Assembly (NCBI RefSeq): GCF_000337555.1 | Contig: NZ_AOIO01000049.1 | Coordinates: 21,880 to 85,879 of the forward strand | DNA length: 64,000 nucleotides | Source of the DNA: Natrialba asiatica DSM 12278 | GTDB taxonomy: Archaea > Halobacteriota > Halobacteria > Halobacteriales > Natrialbaceae | Direction: 5' to 3' | In this document: one piece after another, positions 19,871 to 33,903 of the stretch | Position numbering within the stretch: position 1 is the first letter of the stretch | How the letters are laid out: every line of letters starts with the position of its first letter | Notes under the pieces: generated by a model | The model's input: the letters and a program-made list of their open reading frames with translations, nothing else | Told to the model about the DNA's origin: nothing | Database searches by the model: none | Made by a program: the position numbers and the translations under genes

Positions 19871-20777
19871 GTTTCAATCCCGTTGTGGGTTTCTACCGCG
19901 TCGCGACCGAACTGCTCGACGATGCTGGTCGGGCACTATCTGTTTCAATCCCGGTGTGGGTTTCTACCGCACTTCGACTCGACCTTTCCGACCAGGCTCC
20001 TTCGGGCGCGTCGGTGTTTCAATCCCGATCTGGGTTTCTACCGCACTTCGACTCGATGCTGCGGATGGAACCGAACAACAACTCGCTTTGTTTCAATCCC
20101 GATCTGGGTTTCTACCGCACTTCGACTCCCGGTTCTATGACAACTGCACCAATATCACCATGTTTCAATCCCGATCTGGGTTTCTACCGCACTTCGACCT
20201 TGTAATCTGAACCTTCTTCCCACGAGTCCTTGCGTTTCAATCCCGATCTGGGTTTCTACCGCACTTCGACCCGACCGGAGACCCGCCAGAGATAGCGATA
20301 GCGGAGTTTCAATCCCGATCTGGGTTTCTACCGCACTTCGACGATATAGTGGTACGGTTCGAGGGATTCGACCTCATGTTTCAATCCCGATCTGGGTTTC
20401 TACCGCACTTCGACCAATGAGCACGAGCAACCGCCTCGGAGATCTAATGTTTCAATCCCGATCTGGGTTTCTACCGCACTTCGACACCGTGGAAGTTGAA
20501 CTTATCATTGCGCGTCTTATAGTTTCAATCCCGATCTGGGTTTCTACCGCACTTCGACGGGCACAACAACCCGGCAGTCGTCCTGGCGATCGTCGTTTCA
20601 ATCCCGATCTGGGTTTCTACCGCACTTCGACCCTTCGCCGCGGATTTCGGCGAGGGCCTGTTCGATCGTTTCAATCCCGATCTGGGTTTCTACCGCACTT
20701 CGACCGAACCCGTCACCGCCGCCGAGTCCGAACCCGTCTCGTTTCAATCCCGATCTGGGTTTCTACCGCACTTCGAC
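19871..20777 (-). CRISPR. CRISPR array 1, 13 repeats, transcribed leftward
   Basis: Thirteen 37-base repeats start at 19871, 19942, 20016, 20090, 20162, 20234, 20306, 20378, 20449, 20522, 20595, 20668 and 20741; the 12 spacers are 34-37 bases. On the minus strand the repeat begins GTCGAAGTGCGG and ends CGGGATTGAAAC, giving the usual ATTGAAAC 5' tag. The two leftmost repeats are variant (cacaacggg and cacaccggg in place of cagatcggg), marking that side as the old end. The leader is therefore on the right, beside cas2. Confidence 0.97.
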
Positions 20778-26647: not shown

Positions 26648-27085
26648 TTAGTTGGTCTCTGTCGTGTTGTCGGTTGTCTCGCGCTGCAGTTGGATCGTCG
26701 CCGCGTAGAACCCGTCCGCGAGGTTGTTTGCCCGCCGCTTCAACAGCGACGGCTTCCCCTCACAGCGGTCGACGAGGAGTCGCTGCGCGAATGCGTTCGC
26801 GTATCGCTCGATACGCTCATTCAGATGGTCGCCGCTCCGACTCTTCTCGGCGGGTACCGGCCACACCTGTTCGCTTCGCTGGTGGAGTTTTTCAAGTCGG
26901 CCAGCGACGAGAAGTGCCGCCTCGTCGACGCTCAGCCGAAACTCGTTCGAGTCCTTCACGGCCTTTACTGATTCTCGAAACACTCGCTCGATGGCGTACG
27001 GCTTGTCGTTCCCGTACGCGGGCCGTATTGCGTCATAGGCGAGTTCCGCGAGTTCGGTCACATCGTCCTTGGTTGTGTTCGTCAT
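26648..27085 (-). CDS. cas11d: stand-alone small subunit Cas11d (candidate)
   Basis: 145 residues, all-helical: TELAELAYDAIRPAYGNDKP, then AIERVFRESVKAVKDSNEF, LSVDEAALLVAGRLEKLHQR, LNERIERYANAFAQRLL and LLKRRANNLADGFYAATIQL. This layout matches the C-terminal domain of bacterial Cas10d, which in studied type I-D systems is also made separately by internal translation and serves as small subunit Cas11d. Here it is its own gene, with its ATG overlapping the cas10d stop (ATGA), as if the gene had been split at the domain border. Assignment is by position and fold pattern. Confidence 0.72.
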   Translation of the reverse strand: MTNTTKDDVTELAELAYDAIRPAYGNDKPYAIERVFRESVKAVKDSNEFRLSVDEAALLVAGRLEKLHQRSEQVWPVPAEKSRSGDHLNERIERYANAFAQRLLVDRCEGKPSLLKRRANNLADGFYAATIQLQRETTDNTTETN

Positions 27086-29583
27086 TCGTGAATCACTGTC
27101 GTCGTATCCGCATCGTTCGTCGGATTTCCATACCGGTCGAGGTAGTCCGCTTCCTCGAGCAGATACCGTGCGGCCCCGCCGTCATCGGAATCCTGCACGG
27201 CCCGTTTCAACAGGTACGACCCAGGTAGCGGCTTATTCCGGACAATCCGGAGATACTTCGCGAACCGGGCGTCGTCGCGGGCAAGTGCGTAGCCGAGTTC
27301 GATCAGGGCGGCGGCTGATCCGAGTCGGTTTCGAAGCTTCGAAAGCGGAATCTCCCGGCCGTAAAACCCGTTGACGGTCGTGAATCCGGCGTCGAGCTTC
27401 ATCATCTCCGGGAAGTCGCGTCCCCGGACCTCCGGAATCGGGGACTGTGAGACGTACGCTCGCAGCCCCATTGTCGACGCGACCGCGAGACCGACGAAGA
27501 CGCCGAAGAACTGGAATTCCGTCTCGTTGTCCTGTGGCTTGTAGAACGAGAGCGTCTGCGTCCCGAACCCGGCGTCGGGGTCGAATCCATTCTGGAGCTG
27601 CTCGATCATTGAGAGTCCGCCCATGTCCTCGGCTCGCGTCGCCTCGCGGAGGACGGTCGATACCGACTCGGAGATCGGCGTCTCGTCCGCTCGGTCATGG
27701 TCTTCTCCAGTAGTCGCGACGTCGAACATCGCAGAGCTGAGACGACCGACCCGGGTCATCGCCTCCCCCGTGAACCGCGCGAAAATTTCGTCGGTGTAGA
27801 GGTCCCACATCGTCGGCGTGTAGAAGTAGTCCGGCACCAGATGGACGAAGAGGCGACCGGCGTCGCGCTGACTCGATCCGGTCTCGCGGAGGGAGAACTC
27901 GATCTGACACGGCGTACAGACGAGGAGTTTCTCTGGCTGGCCGGCGTCGGCAGGGATCCGGTTCGAGTACCCTGCTTGGAGCGTCGTAAGCGACTTCGGC
28001 GCTTTCATGTCGCTCTTTCGGGTACTCGTCGTCCCGCGGTTGCAGAATGTACACGTTTTCCCCCGTCGAGTCGCGTGGTGCTCTTCGAACGGGTCGGAGA
28101 GTTCGTTCATCTCCGCGGTCGGTGGGGACGCCTGACCACCGACGCGGAGGGCGTCACCGATGTATGCCCGGAGTTCGGTCTCGAATTGGCCCGTGTGTGC
28201 GCCCATGACAATGTCGTCCCACTCCTCGTCGAGCGCGTCGAGGTTCGTAATGAGGAGTTTCGCGACCTCGCCCGGAACGTCCTGCCAGCCCTCACGACGC
28301 GCTCGATCAGCGATGTGCTGACCGACTGCGTACGCGTAGTCCCACTTCCCACCAGCTGTGAGGTCGACGTCCTCGTCGTCGCGGATCTCCCGGAGGCCGT
28401 CGAGGATGTTCTCGTTGATTTCGAAGAGCCGACACGTGACGGTGAGGGCATCGTCGTCTGTCAGGCCGGCATTGACGAGCGGATCGACGAACGCGCGTTT
28501 GAACGTGTACACCAGTCGCGCGTAACCAGGGGCGACTCGTGTCGTCGTGTCGATGTCGATCGGGAGACGCTCGTTCAGCGTCTCCATCGTCTCCGCCATG
28601 CTGTCAGTCGGTCCCGAGTCGGGGTCCGCGTCTTGCTTGGCCTTCAACGCGGTCGCGTAGAGGAGGTTCCGCGCGCCAGCGTAGAAGAAGTCTTGGTCGT
28701 TGATCGTGTAGAACCCTTGTGACTGCGTCGAAAGGTTGTCCGCGAGCGCGCTGTGACTGTCGTATGCGTCATGGGATTCGGGGATATCTGCCCGAAGCCG
28801 GTCGTACACGTTGCTAATCAGGTCCTTGTCGACTGTCGGTTCCGAAGAGCTCCCATCGGTTAGGTAGACGCAGCCATCTTGGTAGATGAGGAGTCGCTCG
28901 TATCCCAGGCGTTCCTCAAGGACGTGGCTGACCGCGCCGTTGAGGAGGTTGGTGAACACGCCCTTCACGTCGTCGAGCGTGTGGTGCCGGAGCTCGAGGT
29001 CGGTTCCGGGGTATGCGACTTCCAAACCCGTCTGATTCCGGTCGACCGTCGCCGCTTCCGGTGTCTCGCAGGACGCGAACGCGTCGGCGAGACGAACGTA
29101 GGGCCGGAGGTGGTCGTACGTCCGAGTGGCGTGCTCCGGATTCGAGTTCCACGTGTTCGAGTGATCGACCGCGCATGCGTGGAAGGTCTCGATCCGAAGG
29201 TCGGGTGCAAATGCGTCGACACCGAGCACATCGACAAGGTCTGCCACTTCGTCCGTGTCGATGTCGTACTCCTTGTCCATCTTCTGCTCGTCACGGAGCT
29301 TGTGGAGATCGTGAATGGCGAACAGCGCGACAACCTTTCGAAGTTCGTCGTCGCTCAACTCGTAGGCACCGAACGACGGTGCAATCTCGTTCAGGTGCAC
29401 GATGGCGAACACGCCGTTCCGGACATGGTTGAGCATTGACTGGTCGGTCAGGCCGTATTCGACGCTCTTCGCCGTCTCGAAGGACCACCCGACATCAAGG
29501 AGGTGGGGGTCGACATTGGCGAGGTACTCCGCCAGGACGGGATGAAGGTCCTGATCGCCCCAGATAGATGTGCTATCGGGCAC
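27082..29583 (-). CDS. cas10d: large subunit Cas10d (Csc3) with HD nuclease
   Basis: 833 residues, GTG start. HD-type nuclease domain at the N-terminus: FAIHDLHKLRDEQ with His91-Asp92 and a later His141 (AVDHSNTW). A zinc finger has Cys511, Cys514, Cys556 and Cys559 (CTFCNRG, then CTPCQ). No GGDD cyclase motif is present, as expected for type I-D. The usual C-terminal small-subunit domain appears to be missing and is encoded by the next gene. Cas10d recognises the PAM and cuts target DNA with Cas3'. It has its own upstream gap, separate from cas6. Confidence 0.92.
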   Translation of the reverse strand: MPDSTSIWGDQDLHPVLAEYLANVDPHLLDVGWSFETAKSVEYGLTDQSMLNHVRNGVFAIVHLNEIAPSFGAYELSDDELRKVVALFAIHDLHKLRDEQKMDKEYDIDTDEVADLVDVLGVDAFAPDLRIETFHACAVDHSNTWNSNPEHATRTYDHLRPYVRLADAFASCETPEAATVDRNQTGLEVAYPGTDLELRHHTLDDVKGVFTNLLNGAVSHVLEERLGYERLLIYQDGCVYLTDGSSSEPTVDKDLISNVYDRLRADIPESHDAYDSHSALADNLSTQSQGFYTINDQDFFYAGARNLLYATALKAKQDADPDSGPTDSMAETMETLNERLPIDIDTTTRVAPGYARLVYTFKRAFVDPLVNAGLTDDDALTVTCRLFEINENILDGLREIRDDEDVDLTAGGKWDYAYAVGQHIADRARREGWQDVPGEVAKLLITNLDALDEEWDDIVMGAHTGQFETELRAYIGDALRVGGQASPPTAEMNELSDPFEEHHATRRGKTCTFCNRGTTSTRKSDMKAPKSLTTLQAGYSNRIPADAGQPEKLLVCTPCQIEFSLRETGSSQRDAGRLFVHLVPDYFYTPTMWDLYTDEIFARFTGEAMTRVGRLSSAMFDVATTGEDHDRADETPISESVSTVLREATRAEDMGGLSMIEQLQNGFDPDAGFGTQTLSFYKPQDNETEFQFFGVFVGLAVASTMGLRAYVSQSPIPEVRGRDFPEMMKLDAGFTTVNGFYGREIPLSKLRNRLGSAAALIELGYALARDDARFAKYLRIVRNKPLPGSYLLKRAVQDSDDGGAARYLLEEADYLDRYGNPTNDADTTTVIHE

Positions 29584-29646
29584 TGGTATTCCCCCTGTCA
29601 GACCATGACCGACCCCCGGTTTGAGCGATCACGCCCCCGTAAGAAG

Positions 29647-29660
29647 CATCGTATATCTCG
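29647..29660 (-). promoter_or_regulatory. candidate TATA box for the cas10d-cas2 operon
   Basis: On the minus strand, gagatatacgatg lies 65-75 bases upstream of the cas10d GTG. It is the best TATA-like site before this operon. A G-rich SD-like ggggg lies just before the start codon. If used, interference and adaptation genes are transcribed independently of cas6. Confidence 0.4.
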
Positions 29661-29834
29661 CCCGTTGATCGACCAGCCGGTCGAAACCGTCGGTCTACTG
29701 GATGTCGATACGGCTGGGTTCCATTTCTGACACGGAAACCCACGCTCAAACGCTCTACGAGTCCGGCGTTATCTGATCCTCTTAATTTAGTCCTAGCTAT
29801 CATGCGCCTCGGCTTGGTGTACACACCGAAGACA

Positions 29835-29868
29835 CTAAAATTTCTAGTGGCCCTTGTATGGGTACCGC
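29835..29868 (+). promoter_or_regulatory. candidate creT promoter with CreA target site
   Basis: A TATA-like ctaaaattt (29835-29843) points to a start near 29865. The site cttgtatgggtaccgc (29853-29868) overlaps the predicted start. It matches the spacer-like sequence that follows the degenerate repeat at 29908-29944 at positions 1-5, 7-11 and 14-16. Positions 6 and 12, which Cascade leaves unpaired, are two of the three mismatches. The three bases 5' of the site are GCC. Confidence 0.55.
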
Positions 29869-29869
29869 T

Positions 29870-29941
29870 ATGCAGAACCTTCGAGTACTTCGGGGAACGT
29901 ACTCCTTGATGCGACCCCTGAAGAAATCCAAACGGAATTGA
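29870..29941 (+). CDS. candidate CreT toxin mini-ORF
   Basis: A 23-codon ORF starting four bases after the predicted transcription start: MQNLRVLRGTYSLMRPLKKS, ending KRN. The product would be basic, unlike the acidic proteins around it. It ends inside the degenerate CRISPR repeat. CreT toxins may act as RNA or as tiny proteins, so translation is not required for the model. Purely a candidate. Confidence 0.35.
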   Translation: MQNLRVLRGTYSLMRPLKKSKRN

Positions 29942-29970
29942 AACCTTGTCTGGGTCGCGCACGCACCCTC
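29908..29970 (+). ncRNA. candidate CreA: degenerate CRISPR repeat plus spacer-like guide
   Basis: 29908-29944 resembles the array repeat: it ends cggaattgaaac versus cgggattgaaac and contains aagaaatcca versus tagaaaccca. With one gap, 19 of the 25 3'-proximal positions agree. The following bases, cttgtctgggtcgcgc, form a guide with a partial match 92 bases upstream. A hairpin gagtac/gtactc (29883-29904) precedes the repeat. It lies between cas6 and the large-subunit gene, where CreTA was found in a haloarchaeal type I-B system. Confidence 0.6.
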
Positions 29971-30819
29971 TCATTCTTTCACCTCCACAGAAACCGTCCC
30001 ACACCCTCTGGAGACGAACGCACCGACGCCGGCGTACTCGCTGAAGAGCGCGAGCGCCGTCACTGCGGTCCGGATGGCTTCGCTCGCGCCCTTGAACTTG
30101 TACGTGCAGTCAGCGGTGAACCCCTGGCGGAGAATCGGGCCGCCATCCTCGCCGCGGTTGACGAGGACGGTGTGCGTCTCGTAGGTGTCTGCGTCGGGTT
30201 TTTCGATGAGGTTTGTCCCGAAGTCCTCGCGGGTCATCGCGATTTTGAACTCGTCCGCCCGTTCGTCTGGGATCGTCGTGTTCCACTTGTGTAATATCGA
30301 GGCGAATACGTGTTGCCTCGCGGGAAACATGTTGGTTATGTTGCTACTCTCCTTGACGCACGTCGGCGTCTCGAAGCGGACCTTGATCTCGAAGGTGTTG
30401 TGTTTCCGGGCGGCGATCTCTGAGGCTTTGGTAAGGAGGTCTTCGTGGGTTGTGTTCGTGCTCGCGAAGTCGCGCACGCGGAAGTTGCCATCCGCGAGTT
30501 CGAGTGTGTCGTCGCTGAAGACGAACGCGTCAGCAAGTGCTTGGAAGACCTCTTGGTCGCGGGGATCGGCGACGCCCAACTTGAGAGTGTACGTCTCGTC
30601 GCGGATCACGCGTTTGTGGTGGTCGCGATGGCTCTCGTCGAACGTCCCGAGGAGGCCGCTGTTCGTCAGACTCCCGATTGAGGAATCATGGACGCGCGTG
30701 CTCACATCCTCGTCGACACCGTTGAGTGCCGAGAGGACCGCGCCGTAGATCTGGTAACCATTCGCGGTCGGCACCGGGAACGAGCCCTCTGGCTCAACCG
30801 TTAACTCGATTCGACGCAT
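29971..30819 (-). CDS. cas6: CRISPR RNA endonuclease Cas6
   Basis: 282 residues. Two ferredoxin-like folds; begins RRIELTVEPEGSFPVPTANG and ends with the Gly-rich loop GVGAFVSRGCGTVSVEV typical of Cas6. RVHDSSIGSLTNSGLLG and FEIKVRFETPTCVKESSN are other landmarks. It cuts repeat RNA to leave the ATTGAAAC tag. First gene of the leftward cas cluster, divergent from csa3. The 387-base gap to cas10d suggests independent control. Confidence 0.92.
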   Translation of the reverse strand: MRRIELTVEPEGSFPVPTANGYQIYGAVLSALNGVDEDVSTRVHDSSIGSLTNSGLLGTFDESHRDHHKRVIRDETYTLKLGVADPRDQEVFQALADAFVFSDDTLELADGNFRVRDFASTNTTHEDLLTKASEIAARKHNTFEIKVRFETPTCVKESSNITNMFPARQHVFASILHKWNTTIPDERADEFKIAMTREDFGTNLIEKPDADTYETHTVLVNRGEDGGPILRQGFTADCTYKFKGASEAIRTAVTALALFSEYAGVGAFVSRGCGTVSVEVKE

Positions 30820-30860: not shown

Positions 30861-30993
30861 CACATCTGGATCCGTCACCACCTTGAATCTTTTTGCGATT
30901 CCGAAAACGTATTCAGTCATTCGGGATCGTAACCGGACGATTACGCAATTTCGAAGCCAAACCGTTTAATCGAACATGACTGCAATTGGATGT

Positions 30994-31626
30994 ATGCGTA
31001 CGTACGTCTCCACGATCGGGCACTACAGCCCGCGGGTGATGCGCCCGATACTCGATAACGGCCTCGATGCCGACGACGTTATCGTTCTCCTTCGACCGCG
31101 CGGCGACACGAGCGATAGGGCGAAGAGCGCGATCCAGGATGTTAACCAGACCGTCAACGAACTCGGTCCCGGAGCTGATATTGTTGTCGAGGAGGTAAGC
31201 TACGAGGCGTTCGAAGCCGCTGTGTTAGAATGCGTCGACGTCCTTGAAGCCGCCGAGGGGACGGTAGTACTCAACTTCGACGGGGGTCCGCGGGAGATCT
31301 TTCTCCCGCTGACCGTCGCCGCGATCGCCCGGCCGAACGTCGTCGACCTCGCACTCCAGTTCAGAGATATCGACGAAAAGATCGAAGAGATCGGCCTGCC
31401 GAACCTGATGGGGCGCCCGTCCGACGCGACTCTCGACACGCTCCAATATCTCGTCTCCATCGACGAAAGTACGACCCTTCCTGGAATCTCCGAGGAGACC
31501 GGGAAATCGAGAAGTACTGTCGGTCGACACCTCGACGCGCTCGAATCTGATGGCGCCGTCGAGACGTGGATGGAGGGCAAAACCCGTCACGTCGCACCGA
31601 CACTTGCCGGCCGACTCCACACGTGA
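30994..31626 (+). CDS. csa3: CARF-wHTH CRISPR regulator Csa3
   Basis: 210 residues from the ATG at 30994 (MRTYVSTIGHYSPRVMRPIL). CARF domain at about 1-135 with the ligand-loop motif VVLNFDGGPREIFLPLT, followed by a wHTH (DTLQYLVSIDESTTLPGISE, then GKSRSTVGRHLDALESDGAV). Csa3 proteins sense cyclic oligonucleotides or other ligands and control cas genes or arrays. It is divergent from cas6 and ends 12 bases before the leader of array 2, so it could act on both. Confidence 0.9.
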   Translation: MRTYVSTIGHYSPRVMRPILDNGLDADDVIVLLRPRGDTSDRAKSAIQDVNQTVNELGPGADIVVEEVSYEAFEAAVLECVDVLEAAEGTVVLNFDGGPREIFLPLTVAAIARPNVVDLALQFRDIDEKIEEIGLPNLMGRPSDATLDTLQYLVSIDESTTLPGISEETGKSRSTVGRHLDALESDGAVETWMEGKTRHVAPTLAGRLHT

Positions 31627-31743: not shown

Positions 31744-33819
31744 GTCGCGATGCGGTAGAAACCCAGGACGGGATTGAAACCTCTCTGATCCGGATTCCTG
31801 GTAAGCGATCGAGATGTCGCGATGCGGTAGAAACCCAGGACGGGATTGAAACGATTCGACCGTCGGCTCGTTATGATTCGCGAACGGATGTCGCGATGCG
31901 GTAGAAACCCAGGACGGGATTGAAACAACCGGAACCGGCGGACTGCCGTCACTGCGACCGGAAGTCGCGATGCGGTAGAAACCCAGGACGGGATTGAAAC
32001 GAGGATATGATGCTCGGAATCGACTGCACGAAATGCGTCGCGATGCGGTAGAAACCCAGGACGGGATTGAAACAGACGGCAACTCGAGCGCGAACTCGGA
32101 GACCATTTCGTCGCGATGCGGTAGAAACCCAGGACGGGATTGAAACAGAAACGGCTTCGTTGCATTTCTGGATCGATTCGGTCGCGATGCGGTAGAAACC
32201 CAGGACGGGATTGAAACAATCAAATGTCCGAATTGTGGGAACGTAGCTGTCTGGTCGCGATGCGGTAGAAACCCAGGACGGGATTGAAACCTTGTCCCCG
32301 CTGTGCAGGTCACCATGGAGGGCATGTGTCGCGATGCGGTAGAAACCCAGGACGGGATTGAAACACTGCGAAGGGGAAGCAGTCGGTGATCGGGCTCGAG
32401 GTCGCGATGCGGTAGAAACCCAGGACGGGATTGAAACATAAGTACCGAGAGACGCCACTCCCCGATAACCTCGGTCGCGATGCGGTAGAAACCCAGGACG
32501 GGATTGAAACAAGAGCAGGGCCGAAGGGACCGATCTAGAAGTCCGTCGCGATGCGGTAGAAACCCAGGACGGGATTGAAACACGCTTTTACGTCGCTTAG
32601 CTCAGGCTGAATGTCTCGTCGCGATGCGGTAGAAACCCAGGACGGGATTGAAACAGAACTGGGGAGCCACTTTCGCCCCGCCCGCGCCGATGTCGCGATG
32701 CGGTAGAAACCCAGGACGGGATTGAAACAGCACCGAGAGCACGGTTTCATCGAGTTGTCGAACCGTCGCGATGCGGTAGAAACCCAGGACGGGATTGAAA
32801 CAGAACGTGTTGCCCGACGCATCAATGTCGTCAGTCAGGTCGCGATGCGGTAGAAACCCAGGACGGGATTGAAACACTACGTGACGAGCGTGATCGACGA
32901 CAAGCGCGCCGGTCGCGATGCGGTAGAAACCCAGGACGGGATTGAAACCGGGCGCGATCTACGAACTGACTGAGGACCAGTTTGGTCGCGATGCGGTAGA
33001 AACCCAGGACGGGATTGAAACATCAATAAGAACTGGAACCGGTTCATGTCGTGGGTCGCGATGCGGTAGAAACCCAGGACGGGATTGAAACACCACCGAG
33101 TCAATCAACGACGTGCCGCCGGCCACTGGTCGCGATGCGGTAGAAACCCAGGACGGGATTGAAACCGTCGTCGTCTGTTTCTCCGGTCTGTCCCTCGTCG
33201 TGTCGCGATGCGGTAGAAACCCAGGACGGGATTGAAACTTCCGTGTTAAGCGATACCTAAACTTAGTTCCTCCGGTCGCGATGCGGTAGAAACCCAGGAC
33301 GGGATTGAAACCTTGGAGTTGTTTGCTTTCTAGTGATTATCATAATGTCGCGATGCGGTAGAAACCCAGGACGGGATTGAAACTTTGAGGGCCTGTTTCG
33401 GGCACTTGACCTTAATGTGGTCGCGATGCGGTAGAAACCCAGGACGGGATTGAAACAGTCAGTCGGGATGGACACGATAGAAAGCAACGTCGCGATGCGG
33501 TAGAAACCCAGGACGGGATTGAAACAATACCTCGGCAAGTACCTGAGCGCGATATACGGCGGGTCGCGATGCGGTAGAAACCCAGGACGGGATTGAAACT
33601 GCGCCACCGCCAGATTCGCTGTTAGACTCGTCTTGTCGCGACGCGGTAGAAACCCACACCGGGATTGAAACAATCAGTAGGTGGCAATCCAATCACTCCC
33701 ACACTGGGGAGTCGCGACGCGGTAGAAACCCACACCGGGATTGAAACGAGACTATCGCCCGATCGGAAACGGCGTCCGTCCTGTCGCGATGCGGTAGAAA
33801 CCCACACTGGGATTGAAAC
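31744..33819 (+). CRISPR. CRISPR array 2, 29 repeats, transcribed rightward
   Basis: Twenty-nine 37-base repeats, from 31744 to 33783 at 71-76-base intervals, with 28 spacers of about 32-39 bases. The repeat begins GTCGCGATGCGG and ends CGGGATTGAAAC. The last three repeats (33635, 33711, 33783) carry cacaccggg or cacactggg in place of aggacggg. The first two of those three also have GTCGCGACGCGG. These are the same variants as the distal repeats of array 1. This fixes the old end on the right and the leader on the left. Spacers are all different from each other. Confidence 0.97.
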
Positions 33820-33903
33820 TCTCTCTACGCTCTTGTGAAGGTGATTGTTGGTAACCGCGATTAGAACAGCAAATCCCGTATCTAATGAACTCGAGTTCAC
33901 CGA

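Follow-up and report, generated by a model that had tools for sequence, protein, structure and literature searches.

The window analysed here, a 64,000-nt stretch of Natrialba asiatica DSM 12278, carries a type I-D CRISPR-Cas locus in which an insert separates cas6 from cas10d. We propose, with a probability of roughly 80%, that a CRISPR RNA (crRNA)-like RNA encoded in this insert guides the Cas10d complex to a small antisense-strand promoter, which the complex then represses, a form of regulation of the CreA or CreR type. The support is evolutionary: guide and target have changed together among relatives, their mismatches follow a sixth-base pattern, and the protospacer-adjacent motif (PAM) was derived independently. 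If correct, this would extend crRNA-like self-regulation to a Cas10d effector, a type I/III hybrid. Type I-D goes unmentioned in papers on CRISPR-regulated toxin-antitoxin (CreTA) modules, CreR RNAs and related modules (PMC8501985, PMC9458426, PMC12737573, PMC10097628, PMC12948488, PMC13131331); the original prediction list may hold I-D cases. The elements of the insert are as follows.

29825–29843, + strand: stretch CGAAGACACTAAAATTT, resembling a transcription factor B recognition element (BRE) and TATA box, predicted from sequence reading and alignment to be the promoter of a transcript running against the cas genes
29850–29852, + strand: PAM-like GCC; relatives have GCT or GCG, and GCG stands at protospacers of array spacers
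29853–29868, + strand: protospacer matched by the guide (its target), lying 92 nt upstream; 13 of 14 non-sixth positions pair
29858–29907, + strand: predicted short leader, or candidate creT RNA, of 40–50 nt between target and repeat
29908–29944, + strand: degenerate CRISPR repeat (psiR), reading GATGCGACCCCTGAAGAAATCCAAACGGAATTGAAAC and kept in five loci; its last 8 nt, ATTGAAAC, are the predicted crRNA 5′ handle
29911–29958, + strand: inverted repeat GCGACCC ... GGGTCGC around psiR and the seed
29945–29970, + strand: spacer-like guide (psiS), with the matching part at 29945–29960 and T-rich sequence after it, at the cas6 stop
29573–29974, − strand: cas-sense open frame of 133 codons, overlapping the cas6 stop (ATGA) and running into the cas10d start

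Guide, target and degenerate repeat in five loci

Cas10d was sought in 125 genomes of the family, 391 genomes of the class, a scan of GTDB contigs and plasmid records, giving 24 type I-D loci for comparison. Five of them have an insert of 290–400 bp between cas6 and cas10d: the window, plasmid unnamed4 of Halococcus dombrowskii, and loci of Halarchaeum acidiphilum, H. nitratireducens and H. rubridurum. The initial annotation had called for a comparison of this gap across relatives, and a repeat and a guide–target pair were found in all four insert-bearing relatives as well as in the window.

In the window, guide CTTGTCTGGGTCGCGC and target CTTGTATGGGTACCGC agree over 16 nt apart from mismatches at 6, 12 and 13, which is just how the initial annotation had read them. 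The 11-mer CTTGTNTGGGT occurs four times in the whole 4.4-Mb genome, and two of these copies lie in the module. Guide and target are spaced by 92 nt in all five loci. Pairs were scored over positions 1–16 without 6 and 12, giving 14 positions per locus and 70 over the five; at the 92-nt spacing the sum is 65, against a mean of 17.3 (standard deviation 5.4, maximum 31) at other spacings. Each guide matches its own target well (window 13 of 14, Halococcus 14, H. acidiphilum 14, H. nitratireducens 12 and H. rubridurum 12), while guides and targets crossed between the three lineages score 7–9. Relative to the window group, guide and target carry identical changes at positions 1, 2, 14 and 15 in H. 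nitratireducens, and at positions 2, 4, 7, 8 and 15 in H. rubridurum. Judged from these alignments, the match is not a product of chance, because four relatives show the same spacing and their sequences covary. Within the window, full matches to the guide are confined to the module, and the cas6–csa3 promoter region holds no guide match.

Type I complexes flip every sixth base of the guide. All five loci have a mismatch at position 12 and three have one at position 6; the sole mismatches within positions 1–16 are 6 and 12 in Halococcus and 12 in H. acidiphilum. The pattern is thus as expected for pairing within a type I complex, which agrees with the sixth-base logic invoked when the element was first noted. 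Guide nucleotides 1–5 and 7–11 pair at 10 of 10 positions in four loci and at 8 of 10 in H. nitratireducens. Guide base 1 is precisely where pairing begins in four loci; in the fifth, the window, the base before the guide, C, happens to agree with the target side. Beyond base 16 pairing fades.

The window arrays at 31744–33820 carry the repeat GTCGCGATGCGGTAGAAACCCAGGACGGGATTGAAAC, and a second array region lies at 19906–20777. psiR is identical to this repeat at 22 of 37 positions, including 12 of the 13 at the 3′ end and all eight terminal bases, so the degenerate repeat ending in ATTGAAAC claimed in the initial annotation holds, and a degenerate repeat is kept in five loci. When the 387-bp gap was shuffled 1500 times with its dinucleotides preserved, 17 shuffles attained an identity of 22/37, none attained 12/13, and two combined a handle of 7/8 or better with a subsequent 10/10 seed match. 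The 3′ end of psiR is GGAATTGAAA followed by C or T in all five inserts, with the handle ATTGAAAC in four loci and ATTGAAAT in one. A three-base mini-stem precedes the handle, CCC..GGG in the array repeats and TCC..GGA in psiR of all five loci, which at the sequence level is a compensated change. A scan against Rfam returned nothing beyond a sub-threshold CRISPR-repeat match at 29920–29944 (E 0.79).

The trinucleotides preceding the target in the five loci are GCC, GCT, GCG, GCG and GCG, so that GC is invariant at −3 and −2 while −1 varies. Protospacers for the window-array spacers were sought in 391 genomes. Near-full matches were found for five distinct spacers, four of them with GCG at −3 to −1, a count that somewhat overstates the PAM evidence because GCG is a common codon in these GC-rich genomes; the fifth has GCCT ahead of a mismatched first base. 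Protospacers of the Halococcus spacers are mixed (one GCG, one GGC, the others different). A GCN PAM for this haloarchaeal I-D clade therefore appears well supported for the window and less so for Halococcus, and the sequences support the view that the target adjoins a PAM used by the local system. The previously studied type I-D Cascade differs in having a GTN PAM, in which −3 and −2 matter most (PMC9123187), against the GCG or GCN suggested here. A spacer search of phage records gave one borderline halovirus match, HJTV-4; the PAM was taken from the genome searches. The spacer concerned, main-array spacer 6 (32147–32180), matches Natrinema virus HJTV-4 and two genomes at 88%, with its first base mismatched.

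Promoter, transcript and rival explanations

We propose that a transcript would start at a promoter near 29825–29865 on the + strand, opposite to the cas genes, and comprise a leader of about 45 nt followed by psiR and psiS. Cleavage of psiR by Cas6 would produce the ATTGAAAC handle, and the resulting RNA would be loaded by the type I-D (Cas10d) complex. It is likely to be a one-handle RNA by analogy with that of Haloarcula hispanica, because a second ATTGAAAC-type repeat is absent and the sequence at the cas6 stop is T-rich. The complex would then bind the GCN-flanked site at 29853–29868 and block the promoter there, presumably without triggering destruction, since pairing is limited to about 14–16 bases. 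Loss of Cas6 or of the complex would release the promoter; the module would therefore report that both are intact. Once released, the transcript might act as an RNA toxin, as in CreTA, or exert CreR-like feedback on the module or the cas genes, the two being roughly equally probable.

A promoter with its start overlapping the target, as the initial annotation had it, is partly upheld. By eye, a BRE/TATA-like stretch (CCGAAGACACTAAAATTT in the window) lies at a constant distance ahead of the target in four loci. Its AT core is nearly symmetrical and readable both ways, and a start on the + strand would fall within the target. In H. rubridurum the TATA-like stretch is a poor one, which is one of several points that weigh against the proposed mechanism. 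The likeness of psiR to the array repeat goes no further than 22 of its 37 positions, the seed of H. nitratireducens is mismatched at positions 7 and 8 besides 6, and one perfect match of a Halococcus spacer has AGA rather than GCN in the PAM place. There is also no clear second repeat (psiR2), the gap holding no further ATTGAAAC-type repeat but just a GTCGC-like string within the guide; a psiR2 is common in CreTA modules, if not universal.

The initial annotation's view that CreTA logic operates here with a Cas10d complex is sustained for the crRNA-like guide, the partial promoter-like target and the place beside cas6, and the reading of the guide as crRNA-like is strengthened because the relatives and the independently derived PAM agree. 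The toxin-antitoxin half was not borne out, as no conserved mini-open reading frame (mini-ORF) follows the target in the five loci, even among copies 82–86% identical; CreR-like control or pure autoregulation is almost as probable. Of the five loci, the window and Halococcus alone keep open a 27-codon frame that runs from an ATG within the target (29858) to 29941; in H. acidiphilum it ends after 8 codons, and the ATG is missing in H. nitratireducens and H. rubridurum. The sole long conserved string between target and psiR is TTCGAGT (TTTGAGT in H. acidiphilum), for which a T-loop-like reading was dropped as there is no stem. These alignments do not support a CreT acting via a conserved mini-ORF. 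An RNA toxin could still act without one, because the type I-F CreT works through its nucleotide sequence, hairpin and start codon (PMC10097628).

The type I-B CreTA of Haloarcula hispanica and H. hubeiense (PMC8501985) is likewise haloarchaeal and placed beside cas6 or the cas operon, with a degenerate repeat that keeps the 8-nt 5′ handle; its CreA, which adjoins cas6, pairs through nucleotides 1–5 and 7–11 with a PAM-flanked site upstream of its own small operon. The system here differs in its Cas10d effector and GCN motif (TTC there), and pairing extends to 16 nt in two relatives of the window module. The window module also lacks a recognised toxin, rare-codon mini-ORF or clear second repeat, and lies antisense within a continuously open cas-sense frame. 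Previously described creTA genes lie around cas6 in systems of type I or III (PMC10097628). The I-F CreTA of Acinetobacter, like the present module, is an insert of about 400 bp in an otherwise continuous cas operon, confined to a few related species, with a PAM-flanked partial target (PMC10097628). The I-F module has a conserved 33-bp mini-ORF divergent from creA and two hairpin repeats flanking the guide, whereas here guide and leader share one strand and no ORF is conserved. CreR RNAs, known from types I-B, I-E and V-A, resemble crRNAs, match a promoter in part and come without a toxin (PMC12737573, PMC13131331). Their target is a cas promoter; the site here is a candidate for one, its box reading in both directions. 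Type I-D is not listed in these reviews.

That the module is a CreTA proper, with a toxic RNA released from about 29858–29907 that kills or arrests cells losing the I-D complex, falls only a little short of an even bet. The order of promoter-target, short stretch and psiR–psiS on one strand is that of H. hubeiense creTA, the insert adjoins cas6 much as the I-F CreTA lies between cas3 and csy1, and the window and Halococcus have the 27-codon frame in common. The disruption of this frame in the three Halarchaeum loci speaks against a CreTA, as do the lack of a common hairpin and of a rare-codon run (none was seen, without codon-usage or rare-tRNA analysis). The module was also cleanly lost in Haloferax sulfurifontis, nested within the clade, indicating that the system can be kept without it. 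A credible competitor, though one we would not back at even odds, is CreR-like feedback, in which the target would lie in a promoter of cas10d-cas11d-csc2-csc1-cas3-cas4-cas1 and excess complex would lower expression of its own genes. The insert parts cas6 from the rest of the operon, the AAATTTTAG-like boxes are readable in the cas direction also, and the cas6–cas8 gap of H. hispanica contains a promoter for the downstream cas genes (PMC9458426). However, a cas-direction start there would imply a leader of some 230 nt without translation, the openness of the cas-sense frame suggests that translation from cas6 reaches cas10d, and the cas6–csa3 promoter region has no guide match. We regard as distinctly unlikely a closed autoregulation or antisense control whose sole regulated product is the guide RNA with read-through antisense to cas6. 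The transcript would indeed reach into the 3′ end of cas6, which is encoded on the other strand, and full guide matches in the window fall only within the module; yet a self-repressing guide has no clear benefit and has nonetheless been kept across wide divergence.

The continuously open cas-sense frame raises a further alternative, that the repeat-like string is kept as VSIP[FL]GFL codons of a cas-sense gene and the guide match arose by chance. In each of the five loci the cas6 stop is overlapped (ATGA) by a cas-direction ATG that opens a frame of 133, 133, 133, 100 and 134 codons, respectively, to the start of cas10d, and the N-terminus is a translation of psiR. Shuffled inserts stay open in 0.05–0.7% of cases per locus. 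However, among the three closest copies substitutions by codon position are 23/15/17, 21/23/26 and 28/20/25, lacking the third-position excess of cas6 (17/8/59), and the ratio of nonsynonymous to synonymous substitution (dN/dS) is 0.64–0.75, versus 0.09–0.23 in cas6 and cas10d. Outside psiR the predicted protein has no evident similarity among distant lineages, the conserved boxes fall in different frames in different species, and the nine co-changes and sixth-base pattern are features at the nucleotide level. A coding artefact of this kind is therefore highly improbable, and a conserved cas-sense protein gene was rejected for want of codon-position bias. Since the frame is open in five loci without such bias or protein similarity, we infer selection for openness and not for a protein, most simply for passage of ribosomes from cas6 to cas10d. 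This suggests translational coupling of the two genes across the regulatory insert, and such passage would explain how a promoter-bearing insert is tolerated in an operon whose genes normally overlap, an idea open to test. Combining this with the proposed mechanism, a Cas10d addiction module acting through a crRNA-like RNA, antisense within the cas6–cas10d mRNA, its frame held open for ribosomes and its toxin of an undescribed kind, is a speculative and rather unlikely picture.

Distribution of the insert and locus context

The five insert-bearing loci and that of Haloferax sulfurifontis form one supported Cas10d clade, and the Cas6 tree also groups these six. In the 18 type I-D loci outside the clade, inspection by eye found little or nothing between the cas6 stop and cas10d; an apparent tblastn gap in them is mostly an in-frame N-terminal extension of Cas10d after an overlapping or adjacent start codon. 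Haloferax sulfurifontis (locus L017, 2000–2070) has a TAATG overlap of cas6 and cas10d, no insert, and retained cas genes. Because this insert-free locus is nested inside the clade, the simplest history would be one gain and one loss. The comparison thus yields five natural guide–target pairs, a nested relative without the module and a GCN PAM prediction for haloarchaeal I-D systems.

Wider searches added no further case. A covariance model of the module run against 391 haloarchaeal genomes returned the known cases and one weak unrelated match without a handle, and the H. rubridurum and H. nitratireducens modules searched against plasmids gave nothing new. No Cas10d was found in IMG/VR, where a scan for GAAATCCNNNNGGAATTGAAA, used as a null, gave 20 chance matches, all of them lacking a seed match within 400 nt. 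BLAST similarities of 29668–29698 to other genomes are short, lie in unrelated genes and were taken as chance.

The assignment to type I-D in the initial annotation stands, since Cas10d/Csc3, Csc2, Csc1 and Cas3′ are all recognised by family models. Besides the genes listed below, the models identified csc2 (TIGR03157), csc1 (TIGR03159) and a separate Cas3′ helicase (TIGR03158), together with cas4 and cas1; these genes all lie on the minus strand.

26648–27085, − strand: Cas11-like C-terminal piece as a separate gene (family models)
27082–29583, − strand: cas10d/csc3 (TIGR03174)
29971–30819, − strand: cas6 (TIGR01877, score below the family cut-off; the Halococcus homologue is annotated cas6)
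30976–31626, divergent from the minus-strand cas genes: csa3 (family models)

The Cas11-like C-terminal part of Cas10d is split off in the window, Halococcus and at least two further genomes, whereas the remaining haloarchaeal I-D loci have a single long Cas10d. One genome (G119:C1) has two Cas10d loci with identical scores, at 546–559 kb and 611–617 kb and about 60 kb apart, apparently a duplicated I-D cluster. In a further genome of the genus Halarchaeum (G302, locus L067, 8246–8461), cas10d is reduced to a short remnant interrupted by an internal stop.
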